Assembly: GCA_902763865.1 (NCBI GenBank)
Contig: CACWTR010000022.1
Coordinates: 1 to 40,268, forward strand
Length of the DNA: 40,268 bases
Origin: an uncultured Bacteroidales bacterium
GTDB taxonomy: Bacteria > Bacteroidota > Bacteroidia > Bacteroidales > Bacteroidaceae
Direction: 5' to 3'
Below are positions 2,654-18,583 of the stretch, one piece after another; position 1 is the first letter of the stretch, and every line of letters begins with the position of its first letter. The position numbers were made by a program, and so were the translations under genes. The notes under the pieces were generated by a model, which had not been told where the DNA came from, ran no database searches, and was given only the letters and a program-made list of their open reading frames with translations.

Positions 2654-3424
2654 ATGATAACTGAAGCTATCTTTAACGGTCTGATATATAGCATGACTGC
2701 TATGGCCGTTGTGGTATTCGTGAGTCTGTACTTCGTCACCGCAGGCTACGGACAGTTCCGCACCAGGCAGTGGGGATGGAGCGTCAACAACAAGTTGGGA
2801 TGGGTGCTGATGGAGGTGCCCGTGTTCATCGTCATGCTATGGATATGGTGGAGCTCTCCCCTGAAGTGGCATTTGCCGCAGCTTGTCCTGTTCTGCCTCT
2901 TCGAGCTGCACTACTTCCAGCGCAGCCTCGTCTTTCCCTTCCTGCTGAAGGGACAAGGGAAAATGCCCGTTGCCATTATGATGATGGGCTTCCTGTTCAA
3001 CCTTATCAACGGTTTCCTTCAGGGCGGAGGACTCTACTTGTTCCCCAACCCCGACTTCGAGGAAGGTGCAGCCTACCTTCTCCGCTGGAACGCCGTCTGC
3101 GGCATCCTGCTGTTCTTCGTGGGAATGGCTGTCAACCTTCACTCCGATCACGTCATCCGCCATCTTCGCAAACCGGGCGACACGCGTCACTATCTTCCGC
3201 AAAAAGGCATGTACCGCTATGTCACCTCAGCCAACTACCTGGGCGAAATCGTAGAATGGACCGGCTTTGCCCTTGCTGCTGCCACACCGGCAGCCTGGGT
3301 GTTCCCCATCTGGACAGCTGCCAACCTCGTTCCGCGTGCACACGCCATATACAACAGATACAAGGATGAGTTCGGCAAGGAAGCACTCTCTGACCGCAAA
3401 TGCATCATTCCACTTCTATATTAA
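2654..3424 (+). CDS. 3-oxo-5-alpha-steroid 4-dehydrogenase (steroid 5-alpha-reductase) family membrane protein
   Basis: Likely reduces the C4-C5 double bond of 3-oxo-delta4 steroids or bile acids to the 5-alpha (flat, allo) form using NADPH. The protein has about six hydrophobic segments. Its C-terminal third carries the strongly conserved steroid 5-alpha-reductase signature: a GDTRHYLPQKGMYRYV stretch, then ANYLGEIVEWTGFALA, then NLVPRAHAIYNRY, and a tail reading RKCIIPLLY, matching the RKALIPFIF-type tail of eukaryotic SRD5A1. I chose the ATG at 2654 (256 aa); a TTG at 2642 would add four residues. An OYE-type reductase begins 7 nt downstream and a short-chain dehydrogenase after that, the same three-enzyme combination known from isoallo-bile acid-forming gut Bacteroidales. 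Family assignment is secure; the natural substrate is inferred. Confidence 0.88.
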   Translation: MITEAIFNGLIYSMTAMAVVVFVSLYFVTAGYGQFRTRQWGWSVNNKLGWVLMEVPVFIVMLWIWWSSPLKWHLPQLVLFCLFELHYFQRSLVFPFLLKGQGKMPVAIMMMGFLFNLINGFLQGGGLYLFPNPDFEEGAAYLLRWNAVCGILLFFVGMAVNLHSDHVIRHLRKPGDTRHYLPQKGMYRYVTSANYLGEIVEWTGFALAAATPAAWVFPIWTAANLVPRAHAIYNRYKDEFGKEALSDRKCIIPLLY

Positions 3425-3431
3425 GAGTTAT

Positions 3432-4685
3432 ATGAATAATGAAATGAATAAAGTCTTCGAGGAGGCCCACATCGGGCCGCTGACATTGAGGAACCGCACC
3501 ATCCGCAGCGCAGCCTTCGAGAGCATGTGTCCGGGACACGAACCCAGCCAAATGCTCTACGACTACCACACCAGCGTAGCCCGCGGGGGCGTCGGGATGA
3601 CCACCGTTGCTTACGCCGCTGTGACGGAGAGCGGCCTGAGCTTCGACCGGCAGCTCGTCATGAAGTCCGACATTGTCCCAGGCCTTCGGCGGCTGACCGA
3701 CGGCATCCACAAGGAAGGCGCTGCTGCCGGCATCCAGCTGGGACACTGCGGCAACATGAGCCACAAGAACATCTGCGGCTGCATCCCCGTCGGAGCCTGC
3801 AACGGATTCAATCTCTACAGCCCCACCATTGTGCGCGGCCTGCGTCGCGACGAGCTGCCGCAGCTGGCACGTAAGTTCGGCGAGGCCGTCAACCTGGCTC
3901 GCGAGGCAGGTTTCGACGAAGTGGAGATTCATTGCGGGCACGGCTATCTCATCGACCAGTTCCTCAACCCCTACTTCAACCATCGCAAAGACGAATACGG
4001 CGGCTCGCTCGAGAATCGCATGCGCTTCATGTCCCTCTGCGTGGAAGAGGTCATGAAGGCAGCACGCAACGATATGGCCGTCGTCTGCAAAATGAACATG
4101 CGCGACGGACTGATGAACGGTATCTCACTCCAGGAGCACAGCATCCCCGTTGCCCGCCGACTGCAGGACCTGGGCGTACACGCCATCGTGTTGAGCGGAG
4201 GACTGGTGAGTGCCACACCGATGTACGTCATGCGCGGCGAACTGCCCCTGCAGACGATGACGCACTACATGACCGACCCTCTGCTCAAGTATGGCATTCG
4301 CTCCTGCAAACCACTCGTGCGCAGCATCATGACTAAGCCGGTCCACTACGAAGAGGCTTTCTTCCTCCGGGATGCACTGAAGTTCCGCGAGGCATTGCCC
4401 GACATGAAGTTCATCTACGTGGGCGGACTGGTTGCCGGCGACAAGATCAACGAAGTGCTGGGCCACGGATTCAAAGCCGTACAGATGGCACGCAGCCTGC
4501 TCAACGAGCCGGACTTCGTGAACCGACTTAAAGAGGACCCGCACCACCGCTGCGGTTGCAAGCACAGCAACTATTGTATCGGCAGGATGTACACCCTCGA
4601 AATGGCTTGTCATCAGCATCTTGACGAACACTTACCAAAGGATATACTAAATGAAATCGAGCGCATCGAAAGGGAACAGAACTGA
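3432..4685 (+). CDS. Old-Yellow-Enzyme family NADH:flavin oxidoreductase, candidate 3-oxo-delta4-steroid 5-beta-reductase
   Basis: FMN-dependent ene-reductase of the OYE/2,4-dienoyl-CoA reductase family, 417 aa, holding only the TIM-barrel part; BaiCD/BaiH-type enzymes carry an extra FAD/NAD(P) domain that is absent here. The N-terminus HIGPLTLRNRTIRSA and the barrel motifs EIHCGHGYLIDQFLNP and EYGGSLENRMRF are diagnostic. The C-terminal region has a cysteine group CGCKHSNYC followed ten residues later by another Cys; the usual CxxCxxxC 4Fe-4S pattern is altered because its second Cys is Ser. The start at 3432 has AAGAG upstream; ATG 3444 is possible, and the longer open frame from 3267 overlaps the reductase upstream and is not credible. 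Given its neighbours, a bile acid/steroid 5-beta-reductase (or the reverse delta4-forming reaction) is the best inference. Confidence 0.88.
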   Translation: MNNEMNKVFEEAHIGPLTLRNRTIRSAAFESMCPGHEPSQMLYDYHTSVARGGVGMTTVAYAAVTESGLSFDRQLVMKSDIVPGLRRLTDGIHKEGAAAGIQLGHCGNMSHKNICGCIPVGACNGFNLYSPTIVRGLRRDELPQLARKFGEAVNLAREAGFDEVEIHCGHGYLIDQFLNPYFNHRKDEYGGSLENRMRFMSLCVEEVMKAARNDMAVVCKMNMRDGLMNGISLQEHSIPVARRLQDLGVHAIVLSGGLVSATPMYVMRGELPLQTMTHYMTDPLLKYGIRSCKPLVRSIMTKPVHYEEAFFLRDALKFREALPDMKFIYVGGLVAGDKINEVLGHGFKAVQMARSLLNEPDFVNRLKEDPHHRCGCKHSNYCIGRMYTLEMACHQHLDEHLPKDILNEIERIEREQN

Positions 4686-5586
4686 CCTGCCCCACCCTTC
4701 AGACCCTCCCCAGACCTCCCCTAAAGGGAGGGAGTTAGAGGGGGGCCGCAGCATTGCCATCGTCACCGGTGCAGGAACAGGCATGGGGTTCGAGGAAGCA
4801 AGAGCTGTGGCAGCAGCCGGCTTCTATACAATCATGGCCTGCCATCACCCCGAAGCTGCAGAAACGAAAAGGCTGCAAATCATCAGCGAGACAGGCAACC
4901 AGGACGTCGAGATTCTTGGACTTGAGCTGGCTGACCTCAGTTCCGTCCGACGCTTTGCCGACGAGATAAAATCCCGCTTCTCGCGGCTCGACCTTCTCAT
5001 GAACAATGCAGGCATCCTGCCCGCCAAGTTCCATACGACGACGGACAATCTGGAACAGACCGTTGCCGTGAACTATGTAGGACCATACCTGCTCACGCGA
5101 CTTCTCCTGCCCCTGATGGGCAAAGGCAGCCGCATCGTGAACATGGTGTCGCTCACTTACAGGTACGGAACCCTCGACTTCCCCGATTTCTTCACCCGAG
5201 GCCGCAACGGAAGCTTCTGGCGAATCCCCATCTACAGTAATACAAAGCTGGCCCTGACCCTCTTCACCTTCGAGCTGGCAGCACGGCTGAAGGAAAAAGG
5301 CATCACGGTCAATGCTGCCGACCCGGGTATCGTCTCAACAAACATCATCCGCCTGCACATGTTCCTCGACACGCTGACGGACCTCTGCTTCCGTCCCCTC
5401 ATCCGCACACCGCGACAGGGAGCCGACACAGCCATCCACCTTCTTCTCGACAAGGACAAGGAGCAGCAGACAGGCACCTTCAACCGCTCGAACCGCATCA
5501 TCAATGTCGGCGACAAGTTTTTCCGCCACAAGCAGATACACGAACTCTGGGACAGGACCGAGGACATCGTCCGCGACTTCCTATAA
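4651..5586 (+). CDS. Short-chain dehydrogenase/reductase, candidate 3-hydroxysteroid dehydrogenase
   Basis: Classical SDR: cofactor motif TGAGTGMG at 39-46, NNAG at 118-121, catalytic Ser167 and YSNTK (Y195, K199). Its position behind a steroid 5-alpha-reductase and an OYE reductase suggests oxidation/reduction of the C3 hydroxyl of a steroid or bile acid; 3-beta versus 3-alpha preference cannot be read from sequence. The ATG lies inside the preceding gene (35-nt overlap). No other in-frame start sits near the Rossmann strand (SIAIVTG), so the protein carries a roughly 33-residue, Pro/Arg-rich leader. Residues about 14-32 of that leader are encoded by a GC-rich palindromic repeat (4689-4746), so the leader looks like repeat-derived extra sequence rather than a functional domain. 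The symporter gene follows after 14 nt. Confidence 0.87.
   Translation: MKSSASKGNRTDLPHPSDPPQTSPKGRELEGGRSIAIVTGAGTGMGFEEARAVAAAGFYTIMACHHPEAAETKRLQIISETGNQDVEILGLELADLSSVRRFADEIKSRFSRLDLLMNNAGILPAKFHTTTDNLEQTVAVNYVGPYLLTRLLLPLMGKGSRIVNMVSLTYRYGTLDFPDFFTRGRNGSFWRIPIYSNTKLALTLFTFELAARLKEKGITVNAADPGIVSTNIIRLHMFLDTLTDLCFRPLIRTPRQGADTAIHLLLDKDKEQQTGTFNRSNRIINVGDKFFRHKQIHELWDRTEDIVRDFL
4689..4746 (+). repeat. REP-like GC-rich palindromic element, copy 1 (inside the SDR leader)
   Basis: The core is CCTCCC (4715-4720), CTAAA, GGGAGG (4726-4731), flanked by further C-rich and G-rich arms. It is read through in frame as part of the SDR N-terminus. It shares its layout (CCCTCCCC, short arm, palindrome, G-rich arm) with the elements at 8711-8794 and 17891-17972. 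Confidence 0.7.
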
Positions 5587-5600
5587 GCAAACGTTAACCG

Positions 5601-6983
5601 ATGGACGCAATCAACAACCTCTTCTCTCTGCTCAGTTCCATACTGTGGGGCTGGCCGATGATTGTCCTGCTGCTGGGTACGCATGTATTTCTCACCTTCA
5701 GGCTTCGCATTCCGCAGCGCAGACTGCTGACGGGCATCCGCCTCTCTGTCCAGAAGGACAAGGATGCGACGGGCGATGTCTCGCAGTTCGGCGCATTGGC
5801 AACGGCATTGGCCGCCACCATCGGCACCGGCAACATCGTGGGCGTGGCGACAGCCGTCGCGCTGGGCGGACCGGGGGCTGTGCTGTGGTGCTGGCTGACG
5901 GGCATCTTTGGCATGGCTACGAAGTACGCCGAGGGCTTGCTGGCTGTCAAGTACCGTGTCCGCGGAAAGGACGGCAAGACCTACGGAGGCCCGATGTATG
6001 CCCTTGAACTCGGCCTTGGCATGAAGTGGCTGGCTCTTGCCTTTGCCATATTCACGGCACTCGCCAGCTTCGGCATCGGCTGTACCGTGCAGGCCAACTC
6101 CATCGCTCTCTTGGCAAACGAGACGTTCGGCATCCCGACGTGGGTAGTGGGCGTGTGCATCAGCATCCTTACGGCACTCGTCATCATGGGCGGCGTGAAG
6201 TCCATTGCCCGTGTCTGCACCATCTTCGTCCCCTTCATGGCCGCGCTCTATGTCCTGGGCTGCATCTACATCCTCTGCATGAACAGCTGCTTCGTCTGGC
6301 CTGCCGTCGAGCTCATCGTCGATTCTGCCTTCAATCCCACGGCAGCAGGCGGCGGCTTCGTCGGAGCTACGGTGATGATGGCAGCACGCTATGGCATAGC
6401 CCGCGGACTGTTCTCCAACGAAAGCGGCATGGGCAGTGCTCCCATCGTGGCAGCGGCTGCTCAGACGCGCAACCCGGTAAGGCAGGCGCTCGTCTCCAGC
6501 ACGGGTACATTCTGGGACACGGTCGTCATCTGTGCCCTGACGGGACTCGTCCTCGTCAGCAGCATCCTGGCCTATCCAGACATCAGCTATGCCGACGGCG
6601 CAGCCCTGACGAAGGTTGCTTTCTCGAAGATACCGTATGTGGGCGCGCCCCTGCTCACCTTCGGCATCCTCACCTTTGCCTTCAGCACCATCCTGGGCTG
6701 GAGCTACTACGGCGAGAGTGCCGTCAACTACATCGAGCGCCATCGCATCAACCGCTTCTACCGCATCCTCTACATTGTAGCTCTCTTCTTTGGCAGCATC
6801 ATCAGCCTCGACGTCATCTGGAACATTGCCGACACGATGAACGCCCTCATGACGATACCCAACCTTGTCGCCCTGTTGCTGCTGAGCGGCGTTGCGGCAC
6901 GCGAGACCGACAAGTACCTCTGGGGCGGCCGCCTCGACGAGGACATGGAGGCCACAGAGAAAAGCAGAAGCGAAGACATATAA
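5601..6983 (+). CDS. Alanine or glycine:Na+ symporter (AGCS family)
   Basis: Sodium-coupled amino acid uptake protein of the inner membrane, 460 aa, with about ten hydrophobic segments. Family hallmarks are visible: GATGDVSQFGALATALAATI-type sequence near residues 53-75 followed by GTGNIVGVATA, then FGMATKYAEGLLAVKYR, and the later stretch GLFSNESGMGSAPIVAAAA. It begins 14 nt after the SDR gene and is probably on the same transcript, a neighbour not required for steroid chemistry. It might supply glycine or alanine, or use the Na+ gradient made by the Na+-NQR encoded nearby; the second idea is only inferred from proximity. The substrate cannot be assigned beyond Ala/Gly-type amino acids. Confidence 0.93.
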   Translation: MDAINNLFSLLSSILWGWPMIVLLLGTHVFLTFRLRIPQRRLLTGIRLSVQKDKDATGDVSQFGALATALAATIGTGNIVGVATAVALGGPGAVLWCWLTGIFGMATKYAEGLLAVKYRVRGKDGKTYGGPMYALELGLGMKWLALAFAIFTALASFGIGCTVQANSIALLANETFGIPTWVVGVCISILTALVIMGGVKSIARVCTIFVPFMAALYVLGCIYILCMNSCFVWPAVELIVDSAFNPTAAGGGFVGATVMMAARYGIARGLFSNESGMGSAPIVAAAAQTRNPVRQALVSSTGTFWDTVVICALTGLVLVSSILAYPDISYADGAALTKVAFSKIPYVGAPLLTFGILTFAFSTILGWSYYGESAVNYIERHRINRFYRILYIVALFFGSIISLDVIWNIADTMNALMTIPNLVALLLLSGVAARETDKYLWGGRLDEDMEATEKSRSEDI

Positions 6984-8089: not shown

Positions 8090-9475
8090 ATGAACGAGGC
8101 ACTGACACTATTTGAGCTGAACAGCTTGGTACGCGAGCTTGTCGAGGTGAGTTTCGAAGAGCCGTACTGGGTGGTGGGCGAACTGAGCGACGTCAGTACG
8201 CCTGCCTTCGGCGGACACTTCTACGGCGAGCTCGTTCAGAAAGACGAGGCGAGCGACCGCATCGTGGCACGTGCCCGCATCACCTGTTGGGCACGCAACT
8301 ATAATATAATAAGGTTGCGCTTCCAGAAGGAAGCTGGCGAGACGCTCCGTAAGGGCTTGCAGGTGAAGCTGCTGGTCAAGGTGACGTTCCACGAGCAGTA
8401 CGGCTATTCGCTCAACGTGCTCGACATCGACTCCACGTTCACCCTCGGCGACCTCGCCAAGCGTCGGCGCGAGATTCTCCTTCAGCTCGAGAAGGACGGC
8501 ATCCTGCACGACAACCAAAGCCTTCCGCTGCCACGCCTGCTCCGGCGCATCGCCGTCATCAGCAGTCCGACGGCTGCCGGCTACGGCGACTTCTGCCATC
8601 AGCTCGAACAGAACGACTACGGCTTCCACTTCGACGTGCAGCTCTTCCCCGCAGTCATGCAGGGCGAACAGGTGCCGGAGAGCATCATCGCCGCGCTCGA
8701 GGCAATAGCCTCACCCCCGACCCCTCTCCCGTGGGAGAGGGGGGGACAGTCGCGAGAAACTCCCTCTCCCACGGGAGAGGGTTGGGGAGAGGCTGACCTC
8801 GTCGTCATCATCCGGGGCGGCGGAGCGAGCAGCGACCTGAGCGACTTCGACAGCTACGAGCTGGCGGCTTGCATAGCGATGTATCCGTTGCCCGTCGTGA
8901 CGGGAATCGGGCATGAACGCGACGAGACGGTGCTCGACTTTGTTGCCCATACTCGCGTCAAGACGCCTACAGCAGCCGCAGCCTTCATCATCGACCATCA
9001 GGCACAGGAGGCCGCCCTGCTCGACGACCTCTATATGCGCCTTACGCGTTTGGCCGATGATAGGATTTATCGCGAGAAACAACGGCTGGAACGACAGAAA
9101 TCCGTTCTGCCTTTGCTGTTCTCAAACTTCATTCAAGGGCGGCAAAGCAGGCTTCAGCTCCTTGCTGAACGAATCCAGAGCACGGCCAGACAAAGACTTG
9201 AACGTGAGCCAAGCAGGTCAGAACTGTTCCGACAAAGACTGAAGTCCTCGGCCATACAACACATTGAGCACGAGAAGCATCGCCTTCAACTCATGAAGCA
9301 ACGCATTGAGTTGCTCGACCCTTGCCTTCTCCTCAAACGAGGCTACAGCATTACGACCTGTAACGGCAAAGTCGTGCGCTCTACAGACGGCCTTGCTAAA
9401 GGCGATGCCCTGACGACCATTACAGAACATGGAGAAATACATTCAACAGTAGTATCATGCAAAAGAAAGAACTAA
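8090..9475 (+). CDS. xseA: Exodeoxyribonuclease VII large subunit
   Basis: Catalytic subunit of exonuclease VII, which degrades single-stranded DNA to acid-soluble oligonucleotides. The N-terminal OB fold spans about residues 1-105, followed by the catalytic region with SSPTAAGYGDF (158-168), IIRGGGASSDLSDFDSY (from 240), GIGHERDETVLDFVA and the long C-terminal coiled coil with the final KRGYSITT motif. At 208-235 the protein carries 28 extra residues (SPPTPLPWERGGQ... PSPTGEGWGEA) that are exactly one inverted pair of GC-rich palindromes (8711-8794). The insertion lies just before the conserved RGGG strand and keeps the frame. The gene overlaps xseB by 19 nt. Confidence 0.95.
   Translation: MNEALTLFELNSLVRELVEVSFEEPYWVVGELSDVSTPAFGGHFYGELVQKDEASDRIVARARITCWARNYNIIRLRFQKEAGETLRKGLQVKLLVKVTFHEQYGYSLNVLDIDSTFTLGDLAKRRREILLQLEKDGILHDNQSLPLPRLLRRIAVISSPTAAGYGDFCHQLEQNDYGFHFDVQLFPAVMQGEQVPESIIAALEAIASPPTPLPWERGGQSRETPSPTGEGWGEADLVVIIRGGGASSDLSDFDSYELAACIAMYPLPVVTGIGHERDETVLDFVAHTRVKTPTAAAAFIIDHQAQEAALLDDLYMRLTRLADDRIYREKQRLERQKSVLPLLFSNFIQGRQSRLQLLAERIQSTARQRLEREPSRSELFRQRLKSSAIQHIEHEKHRLQLMKQRIELLDPCLLLKRGYSITTCNGKVVRSTDGLAKGDALTTITEHGEIHSTVVSCKRKN
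8711..8794 (+). repeat. REP-like palindromic pair, copy 2 (inside xseA)
   Basis: Two palindromes in inverted orientation. The left is CCCCTCTCCC (8721-8730), GT, GGGAGAGGGG (8733-8742). The right is CCCTCTCCC (8762-8770), AC, GGGAGAGGG (8773-8781). Outer flanks also mirror each other (CACCCCCGAC on the left, GTTGGGGAGAGG on the right). The 84-nt unit is a multiple of three and is translated in frame. Confidence 0.85.
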
Positions 9476-16910: not shown

Positions 16911-17981
16911 TTATCTGCGCCGACGGTTCCTGCGTTCAGGAATGCCCTTTTGCGGATGAATGGGGTTGGGGTTCTCCTTCGTGACGTGTATCGTGCGTCT
17001 TCTTGGCTGGCTCTCTCGCATCTGAAGAGGCGTAAGTCGTTCATTCCTCTCGCGAAGCGTCGTGTCAAGACCAACGGAATCAATGTCCAGCGAATCCAGG
17101 TCTTCCTCCTGTTCTGCCTTTCCTTCCGGAATCACAACCTTATGCATGCGGATAAGTTTTATTTCACTTATGAGCAAAGGCTTAGGCGGGTCCGTGCGGG
17201 ACATCGGCAAGTAGATGAAGCCCATGACTGAACGAAGGCCGAGCGTGTCTGTTTCCTTGACCGGATCGTATCGCAACTCGTTCTTAGTACTGTTGTGAAT
17301 CAGCTGGTTTACCGTTGCAACAGTGTCTGTGTCGTAGTAAAGATTCAGGAGGGCAATTGCTTCGTTGTTCATGGAGCGGGCCACGAACTGCGACTTGAAG
17401 CGCCATATAAAGCTGTCGCCCGGGCGGAAGGTGGAGTCGGCCTTCAGCTGGAAAGAATAAATGCAACCGACCTGGCTGGAGACGACGCAGGCAAAGTCCT
17501 TGCCCAACCAGATGTTGGCTGTGTCGCCCTCGTTGGTGAGGGAGGCGAACTGGTCCTGTGCCGTTGCCTCGAGTCCCATGCGTTCTGCCTGGGCACGGAC
17601 GCGGGTCACTACATCATTATATAAATGTGTGAAGTCTTCTGCCTTTCCGCTGTAATAAATCATCGAGGAATCGAACTCGGCCTCGCTGATACGATGTTTC
17701 CGAAAGACAGCCTGTATGTACTTGTAGCGCTCCACCTCGACATTCGCGCCTTGTGCTTCAGCCATGCCCTGCGCCAGATGGATGTCAACAAGCACATCGG
17801 TCATCTTGTCCTCACTCAGTATGCCGCGAGGACGGGACGGAGAACAGGCCAGGAAGAGAAGGGAAAGGAAGAAAGGAGAGAAGAAGGAAGTCCCTCTCCA
17901 ACTCCTTTTGAGAGCAGAGTAAAGAAACTGAACAAGCCCTCCTCCTCTGGGGAGGGTCAGGGAGGGGGCTGTCCTTGTCAT
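16911..17981 (-). CDS. DUF4296-type lipoprotein with a repeat-extended N-terminus
   Basis: 356-aa predicted lipoprotein. After the lipobox (LLFLAC) the mature part begins SPSRPRGILSEDKMTDVLVD and IHLAQGMAEA, the DUF4296 pattern of Bacteroidetes lipoproteins encoded next to lspA. The C-terminal half is an unassigned region with a Pro/Arg-rich tail. The ATG at 17981 overlaps the lspA TGA (ATGA), which fixes the start. Between start and hydrophobic core lie about 32 residues (APSLTLPRGGGLVQF...) encoded by a REP-like element (17891-17972), making the n-region several times longer than usual. Function unknown; the neighbour LspA would process its signal peptide. Confidence 0.78.
   Translation of the reverse strand: MTRTAPSLTLPRGGGLVQFLYSALKRSWRGTSFFSPFFLSLLFLACSPSRPRGILSEDKMTDVLVDIHLAQGMAEAQGANVEVERYKYIQAVFRKHRISEAEFDSSMIYYSGKAEDFTHLYNDVVTRVRAQAERMGLEATAQDQFASLTNEGDTANIWLGKDFACVVSSQVGCIYSFQLKADSTFRPGDSFIWRFKSQFVARSMNNEAIALLNLYYDTDTVATVNQLIHNSTKNELRYDPVKETDTLGLRSVMGFIYLPMSRTDPPKPLLISEIKLIRMHKVVIPEGKAEQEEDLDSLDIDSVGLDTTLRERNERLTPLQMRESQPRRRTIHVTKENPNPIHPQKGIPERRNRRRR
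17891..17972. repeat. REP-like palindromic pair, copy 3 (inside the DUF4296 lipoprotein gene)
   Basis: The right half contains CCCTCCTCCTCTGGGGAGGG followed by TCAGGGAGGGGG. The left half, TCCCTCTCCAACTCCTTTTG then AGAG, is a degraded inverted copy of the same type. On the minus strand it is translated in frame (PSLTLPRGGG), matching the peptides PPTPLPWERGG in XseA and DPPQTSPKGRE in the SDR. Confidence 0.65.
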
Positions 17982-18583
17982 CTGAACATCCTTTGGTTGT
18001 AGAAAAGAATGAGGGCTATCACTCCACAGGAAATGCTTGCATCGGCAAAGTTGAAGATGGGGCTGAAGAAGATGAAGTGTTCGCCTCCAATATAGGGCAG
18101 ACCGGCTGGCCAGTCCCATTCTACAAGAGGGAAGTAGAACATGTCAACCACCCTTCCAAGCATCATCGGCGCATAACCCGTCCCCCAGGGGACGAACTCG
18201 GCTACCAAGGGAGCAGGAGGATTGTTGAATATCATCCCATAGAACATGCAGTCAAAGATGTTGCCTGCTGCTCCGGCGGCTATCATCGTCAGGCAGACAA
18301 GATAGCCCCACCCCACCCCTTTTCTGATGCTTCGGCAGATATATACCATCAGGAAGACGACGGCCACAATGCGGAAGGATGTGAGGAACCATTTGTCGAA
18401 CACTTCCATGCCGAATGCCATACCGTTGTTCTCGGTGAAGAGGATGCGGAACCAGTCGGTGACACGTATGCTTTGGTGAAGGTACATGCCGGTCTTGACC
18501 GCAACCTTGATGGCTTGGTCGATAGCAACGATGCCGAGTGCAAGGGCTACAGAGGTCAGCGTTTGAGCATGTTTGCGGGTCAT
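17978..18583 (-). CDS. lspA: Lipoprotein signal peptidase (signal peptidase II)
   Basis: Inner-membrane aspartyl protease that cleaves prolipoprotein signal peptides before the lipid-modified Cys. 201 aa, four membrane segments. Conserved: DQAIK (22-26), ENNGMAFG (51-58), GAAGNIFD (104-111), and the two catalytic aspartates in GRVVDMFYF (D147) and FNFADASI (D181). Its ATG shares a base with the stop of the DksA-like gene (TGATG) and its stop overlaps the next start (ATGA), so three genes are translationally coupled. A roughly 15-residue loop before D181 is longer than in E. coli LspA, as is common in this phylum. Confidence 0.96.
   Translation of the reverse strand: MTRKHAQTLTSVALALGIVAIDQAIKVAVKTGMYLHQSIRVTDWFRILFTENNGMAFGMEVFDKWFLTSFRIVAVVFLMVYICRSIRKGVGWGYLVCLTMIAAGAAGNIFDCMFYGMIFNNPPAPLVAEFVPWGTGYAPMMLGRVVDMFYFPLVEWDWPAGLPYIGGEHFIFFSPIFNFADASISCGVIALILFYNQRMFR

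Follow-up and report, generated by a model that had tools for sequence, protein, structure and literature searches.

A clustered 5-alpha-reductase, OYE-type ene-reductase and SDR in a rumen-associated Bacteroidales lineage: a probable steroid A-ring redox module

A review describes a 5AR/5BR/3-beta-HSDH gene cluster in Parabacteroides merdae, reportedly that of Sato et al. 2021, and the same three families are clustered in the DNA analyzed here. This DNA, the window, is a stretch of 40,268 nucleotides from an uncultured Bacteroidales bacterium (contig CACWTR010000022.1). Many of its named relatives are ruminant-associated, which raises the question of what such a cluster acts on in this lineage.

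Gene layout and conservation

All three reading frames are present and intact. The relevant features are:

2654..3424, + strand: 5AR, membrane steroid 5-alpha-reductase (SRD5A type), 256 aa, starting at ATG 2654; Pfam Steroid_dh and PDB matches
3432..4685, + strand: OYE, OYE-type ene-reductase, putative 5-beta-reductase / delta4-desaturase, 417 aa; Oxidored_FMN
4651..5586, + strand: SDR, putative 3-hydroxysteroid dehydrogenase, 311 aa, of which about 33 at the N-terminus are absent from relatives; adh_short
4686..4746, no strand: stretch with a palindromic repeat, situated between the OYE stop and the conserved part of the SDR; pattern match at 4716-4732

The first-pass annotation had described three adjacent genes with a gap of 7 nt and an overlap of 35 nt. 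Pfam confirms the families, and both spacings are as described (3425-3431 between 5AR and OYE, 4651-4685 between the OYE and SDR frames). Of 62 related loci, 52 have the complete order 5AR-OYE-SDR, with differing genes on the flanks; the clustering is therefore not due to chance. OYE is found in 59 of these loci, at most 150 nt from 5AR in 57 of them and at a distance of 1.3-1.4 kb in the other two; SDR is found in 54. Clustering of 5AR and OYE is not universal in the genus: by hand count in the genus draw, the two genes lie on separate contigs in 6 of the 45 genomes that have both. An ATG at 3447 may be an alternative start for OYE.

The overlap, previously read as a packing detail, goes with a repeat at the position where relatives begin the SDR. 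Fourteen of 16 relatives examined have an ATG no more than five codons from the conserved LAIITG-like SDR core. In the window this start is lost and the palindromic repeat stands in its place, leaving ATG 4651 as the sole in-frame start codon (ATG, GTG or TTG) ahead of the core. Across the genome the repeat pattern is matched 49 times in forward and 53 times in reverse orientation, compared with 0 and 3 for the control. An AlphaFold2 model of the SDR is confident in the core, with residues 1-31 below a pLDDT of 50 and predicted to be disordered.

Two flanking genes that had been pointed out as extra genes do not belong to the conserved unit. The downstream AgcS-type symporter (5601-6983), the supposed Na+ symporter, is a TIGR00835 amino acid carrier and adjoins none of the 62 related 5AR loci. 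The upstream secreted protein (2020-2601), without a match in Pfam or NCBIfam, adjoins two of the 62; it was also found at three of seven short loci from the same genus. When neighbor proteins were grouped, the family ranking fourth, behind the three of the module, was present in at least 13 of 70 records. Such counts are lower bounds, because the script retains the longest of overlapping frames and loses real genes beneath longer antisense frames (in the window, the SDR, AgcS, NqrF and the secreted protein). A fourth conserved partner is possible.

Enzyme families and active sites

The 5AR scores well above the Pfam Steroid_dh (PF02544) cut-off (124.8 against 22.6 bits, E 3.7e-36). Its PDB matches include bacterial SRD5A (7c83, E 1.1e-46) and human SRD5A2 (7bw1, E 2.4e-34), whereas the match to the very-long-chain enoyl-CoA reductase 22of is far weaker (E 0.034). 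Residues E54, Y87 and R90 are invariant across 20 aligned sequences and, in the PDB-match alignment, fall on the SRD5A2 residues that we take to be E57, Y91 and R94 in human numbering. The protein thus combines a PF02544 score above the cut-off with an SRD5A2-like active site containing the catalytic Glu and Tyr, the two features expected of the SRD5A type. It shares family and catalytic residues with both structures, but represents a Bacteroidales branch that is clustered with OYE and SDR.

OYE matches Pfam Oxidored_FMN with 171.2 bits (cut-off 27, E 4.6e-50) and contains H167, H170 and Y172. Its best NCBIfam match is BaiCD, where residues 6-262 align to a 642-position profile and score 169.7 bits, the cut-off being 825. 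We rejected BaiCD membership on this score and on length, as the protein stops at 417 aa, short of the full-length architecture. OYE has the OYE core in common with BaiCD and BaiH of 7-dehydroxylating Clostridia, but is without their FAD/NAD part. Eight window proteins, located between 26 and 8017, were scanned, and all stay below the cut-offs of the bai families.

Near its C-terminus, OYE carries the cysteine motif C374-x-C376-x5-C382-x10-C393, of which C376, C382 and C393 are found in at least 90% of the rows of alignment A1 (32 rows) and C374 in fewer. In the AlphaFold2 model (mean pLDDT 82.4), fold matches to the Fe-S flavoenzymes 2-naphthoyl-CoA reductase (6qkg), trimethylamine dehydrogenase (2tmd) and 2,4-dienoyl-CoA reductase (1ps9) extend to residue 417, and matches to YqjM-class OYEs end at about 372; classical OYEs, however, also reach 393-401, and the C-terminal region has low pLDDT. 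By sequence, the best PDB matches are NADPH dehydrogenases of the YqjM type. In contrast to the three Fe-S enzymes, the window OYE ends after the segment in which 2,4-dienoyl-CoA reductase-type enzymes hold their 4Fe-4S cluster, and its cysteine spacing differs from the one we take these enzymes to have. Because OYE ends here and has no FAD/NAD domain, we infer that it draws electrons from a separate donor.

The SDR exceeds the adh_short cut-off (110.9 against 26.6 bits, E 7e-32), and its conserved and catalytic residues are intact (G40/G44/G46, N118, S167, Y195 and K199). Its closest folds are light-dependent protochlorophyllide reductases and 3rd5, an SDR from a mycobacterium that is itself uncharacterised; these share the SDR fold at only 22-31% identity and do not imply a substrate. 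Steroid dehydrogenases were not singled out by the fold search, with no dedicated bacterial 3-beta-HSDH among the best 50 matches listed. The SDR also matches plant ketone reductases, at modest E-values. The assignment as 3-beta-HSDH is putative and comes from context.

Family, order and conserved catalytic residues support placing the trio, at the level of sequence, in the Bacteroidota 5AR/5BR/3-beta-HSDH set. The review (PMC10382948) relates that disruption of 5AR in P. merdae leaves no alloLCA derivatives, terms 5AR widespread among Bacteroidota, and describes a gut cluster of this kind as active on 3-oxo-delta4 bile acids. Our tree took in other Parabacteroides rows and Phocaeicola vulgatus rows. 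Identity to P. vulgatus ATCC 8482 (L026), a named relative rather than a tested strain, is 59% for 5AR, 64% for OYE and 56% for SDR. The window set differs from the P. merdae cluster in its ruminant-rich clade, its altered SDR N-terminus and a genome without a bile salt hydrolase-family match. The Firmicutes 5-alpha-reductases BaiP and BaiJ (PMC9645264) yield the same kind of product, allo-bile acids.

We consider the trio a steroid A-ring redox module with a probability of roughly 0.72, a figure that applies to the module class and not to the substrate. Families and gene order come from our analysis; direction, stereochemistry and substrates are modeled on the reported P. merdae cluster. By this analogy, the SDR would oxidize or reduce the C3 oxygen, and OYE, through FMN hydride chemistry, would saturate or desaturate the C4-C5 bond from the 5-beta side. 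The membrane 5AR would reduce the 3-oxo-delta4 intermediate and so produce the flat 5-alpha form, so that the three enzymes jointly could turn 3-oxo-delta4 and 5-beta steroids into 5-alpha, C3-reduced products.

Candidate substrates in a ruminant lineage

The window belongs to a separate, well-supported clade (22 rows, SH-aLRT 100, branch 0.38). Of its 14 named relatives, six have a ruminant host in the title and four more a rumen-project name. A comparison of 17 ruminant-clade rows with 33 gut rows, leaving out the horse row L013, four rows duplicating others and more distant rows, gave 24 fixed differences in OYE and three in 5AR. Residues 163-182, which surround the active-site segment, hold five of the OYE sites (p 0.005 in a binomial test on this stretch, picked post hoc); a scan test covering every 20-residue window does not support such clustering (p 0.26), and the sites carry no weight in our reading.

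Matches to the bile salt hydrolase family (CBAH) occur in 1 of 47 carriers of the genus draw, compared with 27 of 30 carriers from other genera of the family, counting genomes as independent, although they are not, and including incomplete MAGs. This family, PF02275, presumably also includes penicillin acylases. The own genome (84% complete) gave no match. In the family draw, 2 of 13 genus carriers have one. Within the genus, carriers and non-carriers (4 of 54) do not differ (p 0.37), so the contrast lies between lineages. The earlier designation as a bile-acid-type set stands for the set itself, on family, order and catalytic residues, while its bile-acid link is weakened by the scarcity of CBAH among genus carriers.

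In the rumen, diosgenin is saturated and epimerized to epismilagenin, with smilagenone and tigogenin reported too, and 5-beta sitosterol products predominate in herbivore feces. Given these reactions, the ruminant relatives and the CBAH contrast, we tentatively propose, at a little short of even odds, that the likeliest natural substrates in this lineage are ketones of plant steroids, derived from sapogenins or phytosterols, with bile acids used opportunistically.

The same module might instead do the job it has in the human gut, converting 3-oxo-LCA through 3-oxo-delta4-LCA and 3-oxo-alloLCA to isoalloLCA, in a ruminant lineage that merely carries it or meets bile acids elsewhere. Families and order match the reported cluster, and rumen contents given 5-beta bile acids form allocholic acid (alloCA), so such enzymes may accept bile acids; the few CBAH matches of the family draw, and the equal CBAH frequency in carriers and non-carriers, also fit. 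However, the rumen is described as normally free of bile acids, no CBAH match occurs in 46 of 47 genus carriers or in the own genome, and the clade is distinct and rich in ruminant members. We regard this as somewhat unlikely. It bears on the substrate and leaves the module class as it is.

An improbable alternative to the module class itself is that another hydrophobic enone (isoprenoid, lipid or plant phenolic) is reduced, or electrophiles detoxified, and that the steroid names were passed on by annotation. Promiscuity is a trait of both the OYE and the SDR family, and the YqjM-type matches of OYE and the plant ketone reductase and protochlorophyllide reductase matches of the SDR would agree with this. 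Against it stand the 5AR, far closer to SRD5A than to 22of and with invariant SRD5A2 Glu and Tyr, and the activity on 3-oxo-delta4 bile acids reported for the related gut cluster. Host- or feed-derived 3-oxo-delta4 steroids of the progesterone or testosterone type are a quite improbable substrate: clostridial OYE-family 5-beta-reductases act on progesterone, with wider substrates including bile acids and phytosterols proposed by their authors (PMC12238238), but those enzymes are homologues of full-length BaiCD, unlike the window OYE.

Implications for rumen steroid chemistry

The cluster is already known; what is new is ecological, namely its presence in a rumen-associated genus mostly without bile salt hydrolase-family genes. 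A rumen survey defined 82 bile-acid KEGG orthologues and found eight in rumen genomes, and the term 5AR is absent from its main text. Narrow searches found no paper joining Bacteroidetes 5alpha-reductase with rumen and bile acid, and none combining four of the topics rumen, sapogenin, steroid reductase, 5-beta, gut bacteria and metagenome-assembled genomes.

Returning to plant steroids, a bolder and rather doubtful proposal is that the ruminant branch accounts genetically for the reduction of these compounds long known from the rumen. It would convert sapogenones such as diosgenone to smilagenone (5-beta) and to products of the tigogenin type (5-alpha), might likewise turn phytosterones into stanones, and would hence have a part in epismilagenin formation. 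In sheep with photosensitisation disease, conjugates of epismilagenin are deposited in the bile ducts.

The occurrence of the cluster in such a genus suggests that genes commonly interpreted as a bile-acid set do not necessarily point to bile acids. It also supplies candidate genes for two rumen chemistries, plant sapogenin reduction and the formation of allocholic acid on bile-acid feeding. If the bolder proposal is true, the bile-acid enzyme set would represent one special case of a plant-steroid set, either older or parallel.

Organization and conservation of the three-gene module

The three-gene set claimed by the first-pass annotation is borne out by three intact frames in one direction:

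2654-3424, + strand: 5AR, steroid 5-alpha-reductase (Steroid_dh, 124.8 bits)
3432-4685, + strand: OYE, Old Yellow Enzyme-type ene-reductase and putative 5-beta-reductase (H167, H170 and Y172 present)
4651-5586, + strand: SDR, putative 3-hydroxysteroid dehydrogenase (glycine motif, N118, S167, Y195 and K199 present)

This 5AR is the only Steroid_dh match that a profile search found in the source genome (2.91 Mb, 84% complete). Its nearest solved structures are 7c83 (1.1e-46) and human SRD5A2 (7bw1, 2.4e-34), and its match to a very-long-chain enoyl-CoA reductase structure is remote (0.034). Residues E54, Y87 and R90 do not vary across 20 aligned sequences and correspond to SRD5A2 positions Glu57, Tyr91 and Arg94 in the human numbering.

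The trio belongs to the known Bacteroidota 5AR/5-beta-reductase/3-beta-HSDH kind, and the module is already known. One review (PMC10382948) describes this cluster in Parabacteroides merdae, where disrupting 5AR is reported to leave no alloLCA derivatives. As described in an excerpt of another review (PMC10672800), the 5-beta-reductase converts 3-oxo-LCA to 3-oxo-delta4-LCA, the 5-alpha-reductase forms 3-oxo-alloLCA, and the 3-beta-HSDH yields isoalloLCA. The Firmicutes enzymes BaiP and BaiJ differ from the Bacteroidota set (PMC9645264).

A contig scan recovered 62 loci whose 5AR is related to this one; absences among them are upper limits, as some contigs stop near the module. OYE is present in 59 (within 150 nt in 57, at 1.3-1.4 kb in two), SDR in 54, and the full trio, ordered 5AR-OYE-SDR, in 52. 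The flanking genes are seldom shared: the AgcS symporter (5601-6983) adjoins 0 of the 62 loci, the secreted protein (2020-2601) two, and NqrF, also encoded in the window, four. The secreted protein is small, shares 57-60% identity with its counterparts in a few nearest relatives, and has no Pfam or NCBIfam match.

Evidence against strict 5AR-OYE linkage comes from 6 of the 45 sampled genus genomes matching both genes, in which the two matches are on separate contigs (G394, G420, G434, G454, G457 and G458); here the module has been split or was differently assembled. At two loci (L035, L036) 5AR adjoins SDR, with OYE found neither between nor beside them. At L028 and L049 the OYE match is in two pieces, possibly because the frame is broken or the assembly is wrong. 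A neighboring SDR of a different family, perhaps with another C3 stereochemistry, is common to five 5AR-OYE loci that are more distant (L042, L044, L050, L053, L055).

A palindromic repeat at the SDR start

Of 16 relatives compared, all but L004 and L063 have the SDR ATG no more than 5 codons from a conserved LAIITG-like core (14 of 16); these ATGs are mostly within ~70 nt of the OYE stop. The window SDR lacks this usual start, its place being occupied by a stretch with the palindrome CTCCCCTAAAGGGAG, and ATG 4651 is the sole in-frame ATG/GTG/TTG available. The 35-nt OYE/SDR overlap, initially read as tight packing, is therefore probably better understood as a by-product of the repeat than as close operon packing. 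In the structure model, the extra SDR N-terminus is predicted to be disordered, while the core is predicted with confidence.

Genome-wide, the repeat pattern matches 49 times in forward and 53 times in reverse orientation, versus 0 and 3 for the control; many forward and reverse matches coincide at the same palindromic sites. This dispersed palindrome, CTCCC-n-GGGAG, occurs in two flavors, with window sites at 4716-4732 and 8724-8779, and lies in frame within coding genes at the SDR start and in xseA. The ORF at 16911-18119 on the minus strand has a similar GGGAGGG-rich stretch (17950-17966) in its N-terminal portion.

Distribution, hosts and bile salt hydrolase

With thresholds of E 1e-20 or better for 5AR and 1e-60 or better for OYE, 5AR matches were found in 90/393 sampled genomes of the order, 43/301 of the family and 47/101 of the genus; OYE matched in 50 of the same 101. 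In a 67-row tree, the window falls in a 22-row clade (SH-aLRT 100, branch 0.38) whose other members are 14 named loci and 7 unnamed ones of the same genus. By the relatives' own titles, the named loci include five from rumen or omasum, one from reindeer, four with RUG (rumen uncultured genome) names, one from horse faeces and three that name no host. Named loci also share identical rows with four genomes of the genus, of which one has water buffalo rumen and another roe deer rumen in its title.

No match to CBAH (PF02275, the bile salt hydrolase family, which covers more than that enzyme) was found in the 84%-complete genome. Among the 301 family genomes, with genus membership and overlaps tallied manually and relatedness uncorrected, CBAH occurs in 27/30 5AR carriers outside the genus versus 84/249 non-carriers (p 2e-9), and in 2/13 carriers within the genus (p 4e-6 against the same 27/30). 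The larger genus draw, likewise uncorrected for relatedness, gave 1/47 carriers and 4/54 non-carriers.

Plant steroids as candidate substrates

Bile acids are described as normally absent from the rumen; rumen contents supplied with 5-beta bile acids formed allocholic acid. Among plant steroids, tigogenin is a 5-alpha and smilagenin a 5-beta form. Excerpts of PMC5535167 and PMC10385484 describe saturation and epimerization of diosgenin to epismilagenin in the rumen, and smilagenone, smilagenin and tigogenin as products of the sheep digestive system. In herbivore faeces, ruminant or not, 24-ethylcoprostanol and 24-ethylepicoprostanol, the expected sitosterol products, dominate (PMC6366745). The predicted 5-alpha, 5-beta and C3 chemistry of the trio fits these sapogenin and sitosterol products, and we therefore favor plant steroids as the natural substrates of the window module, with a probability of about 0.45; that sapogenins in particular are the substrate is less likely. 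The bile acid/steroid interpretation first proposed is partly supported: it holds as to the kind of gene cluster and less well as to what it acts on. Narrow literature searches found no earlier link of the module to rumen steroid chemistry. The module itself is known; its interest lies in its lineage and presumed habitat.
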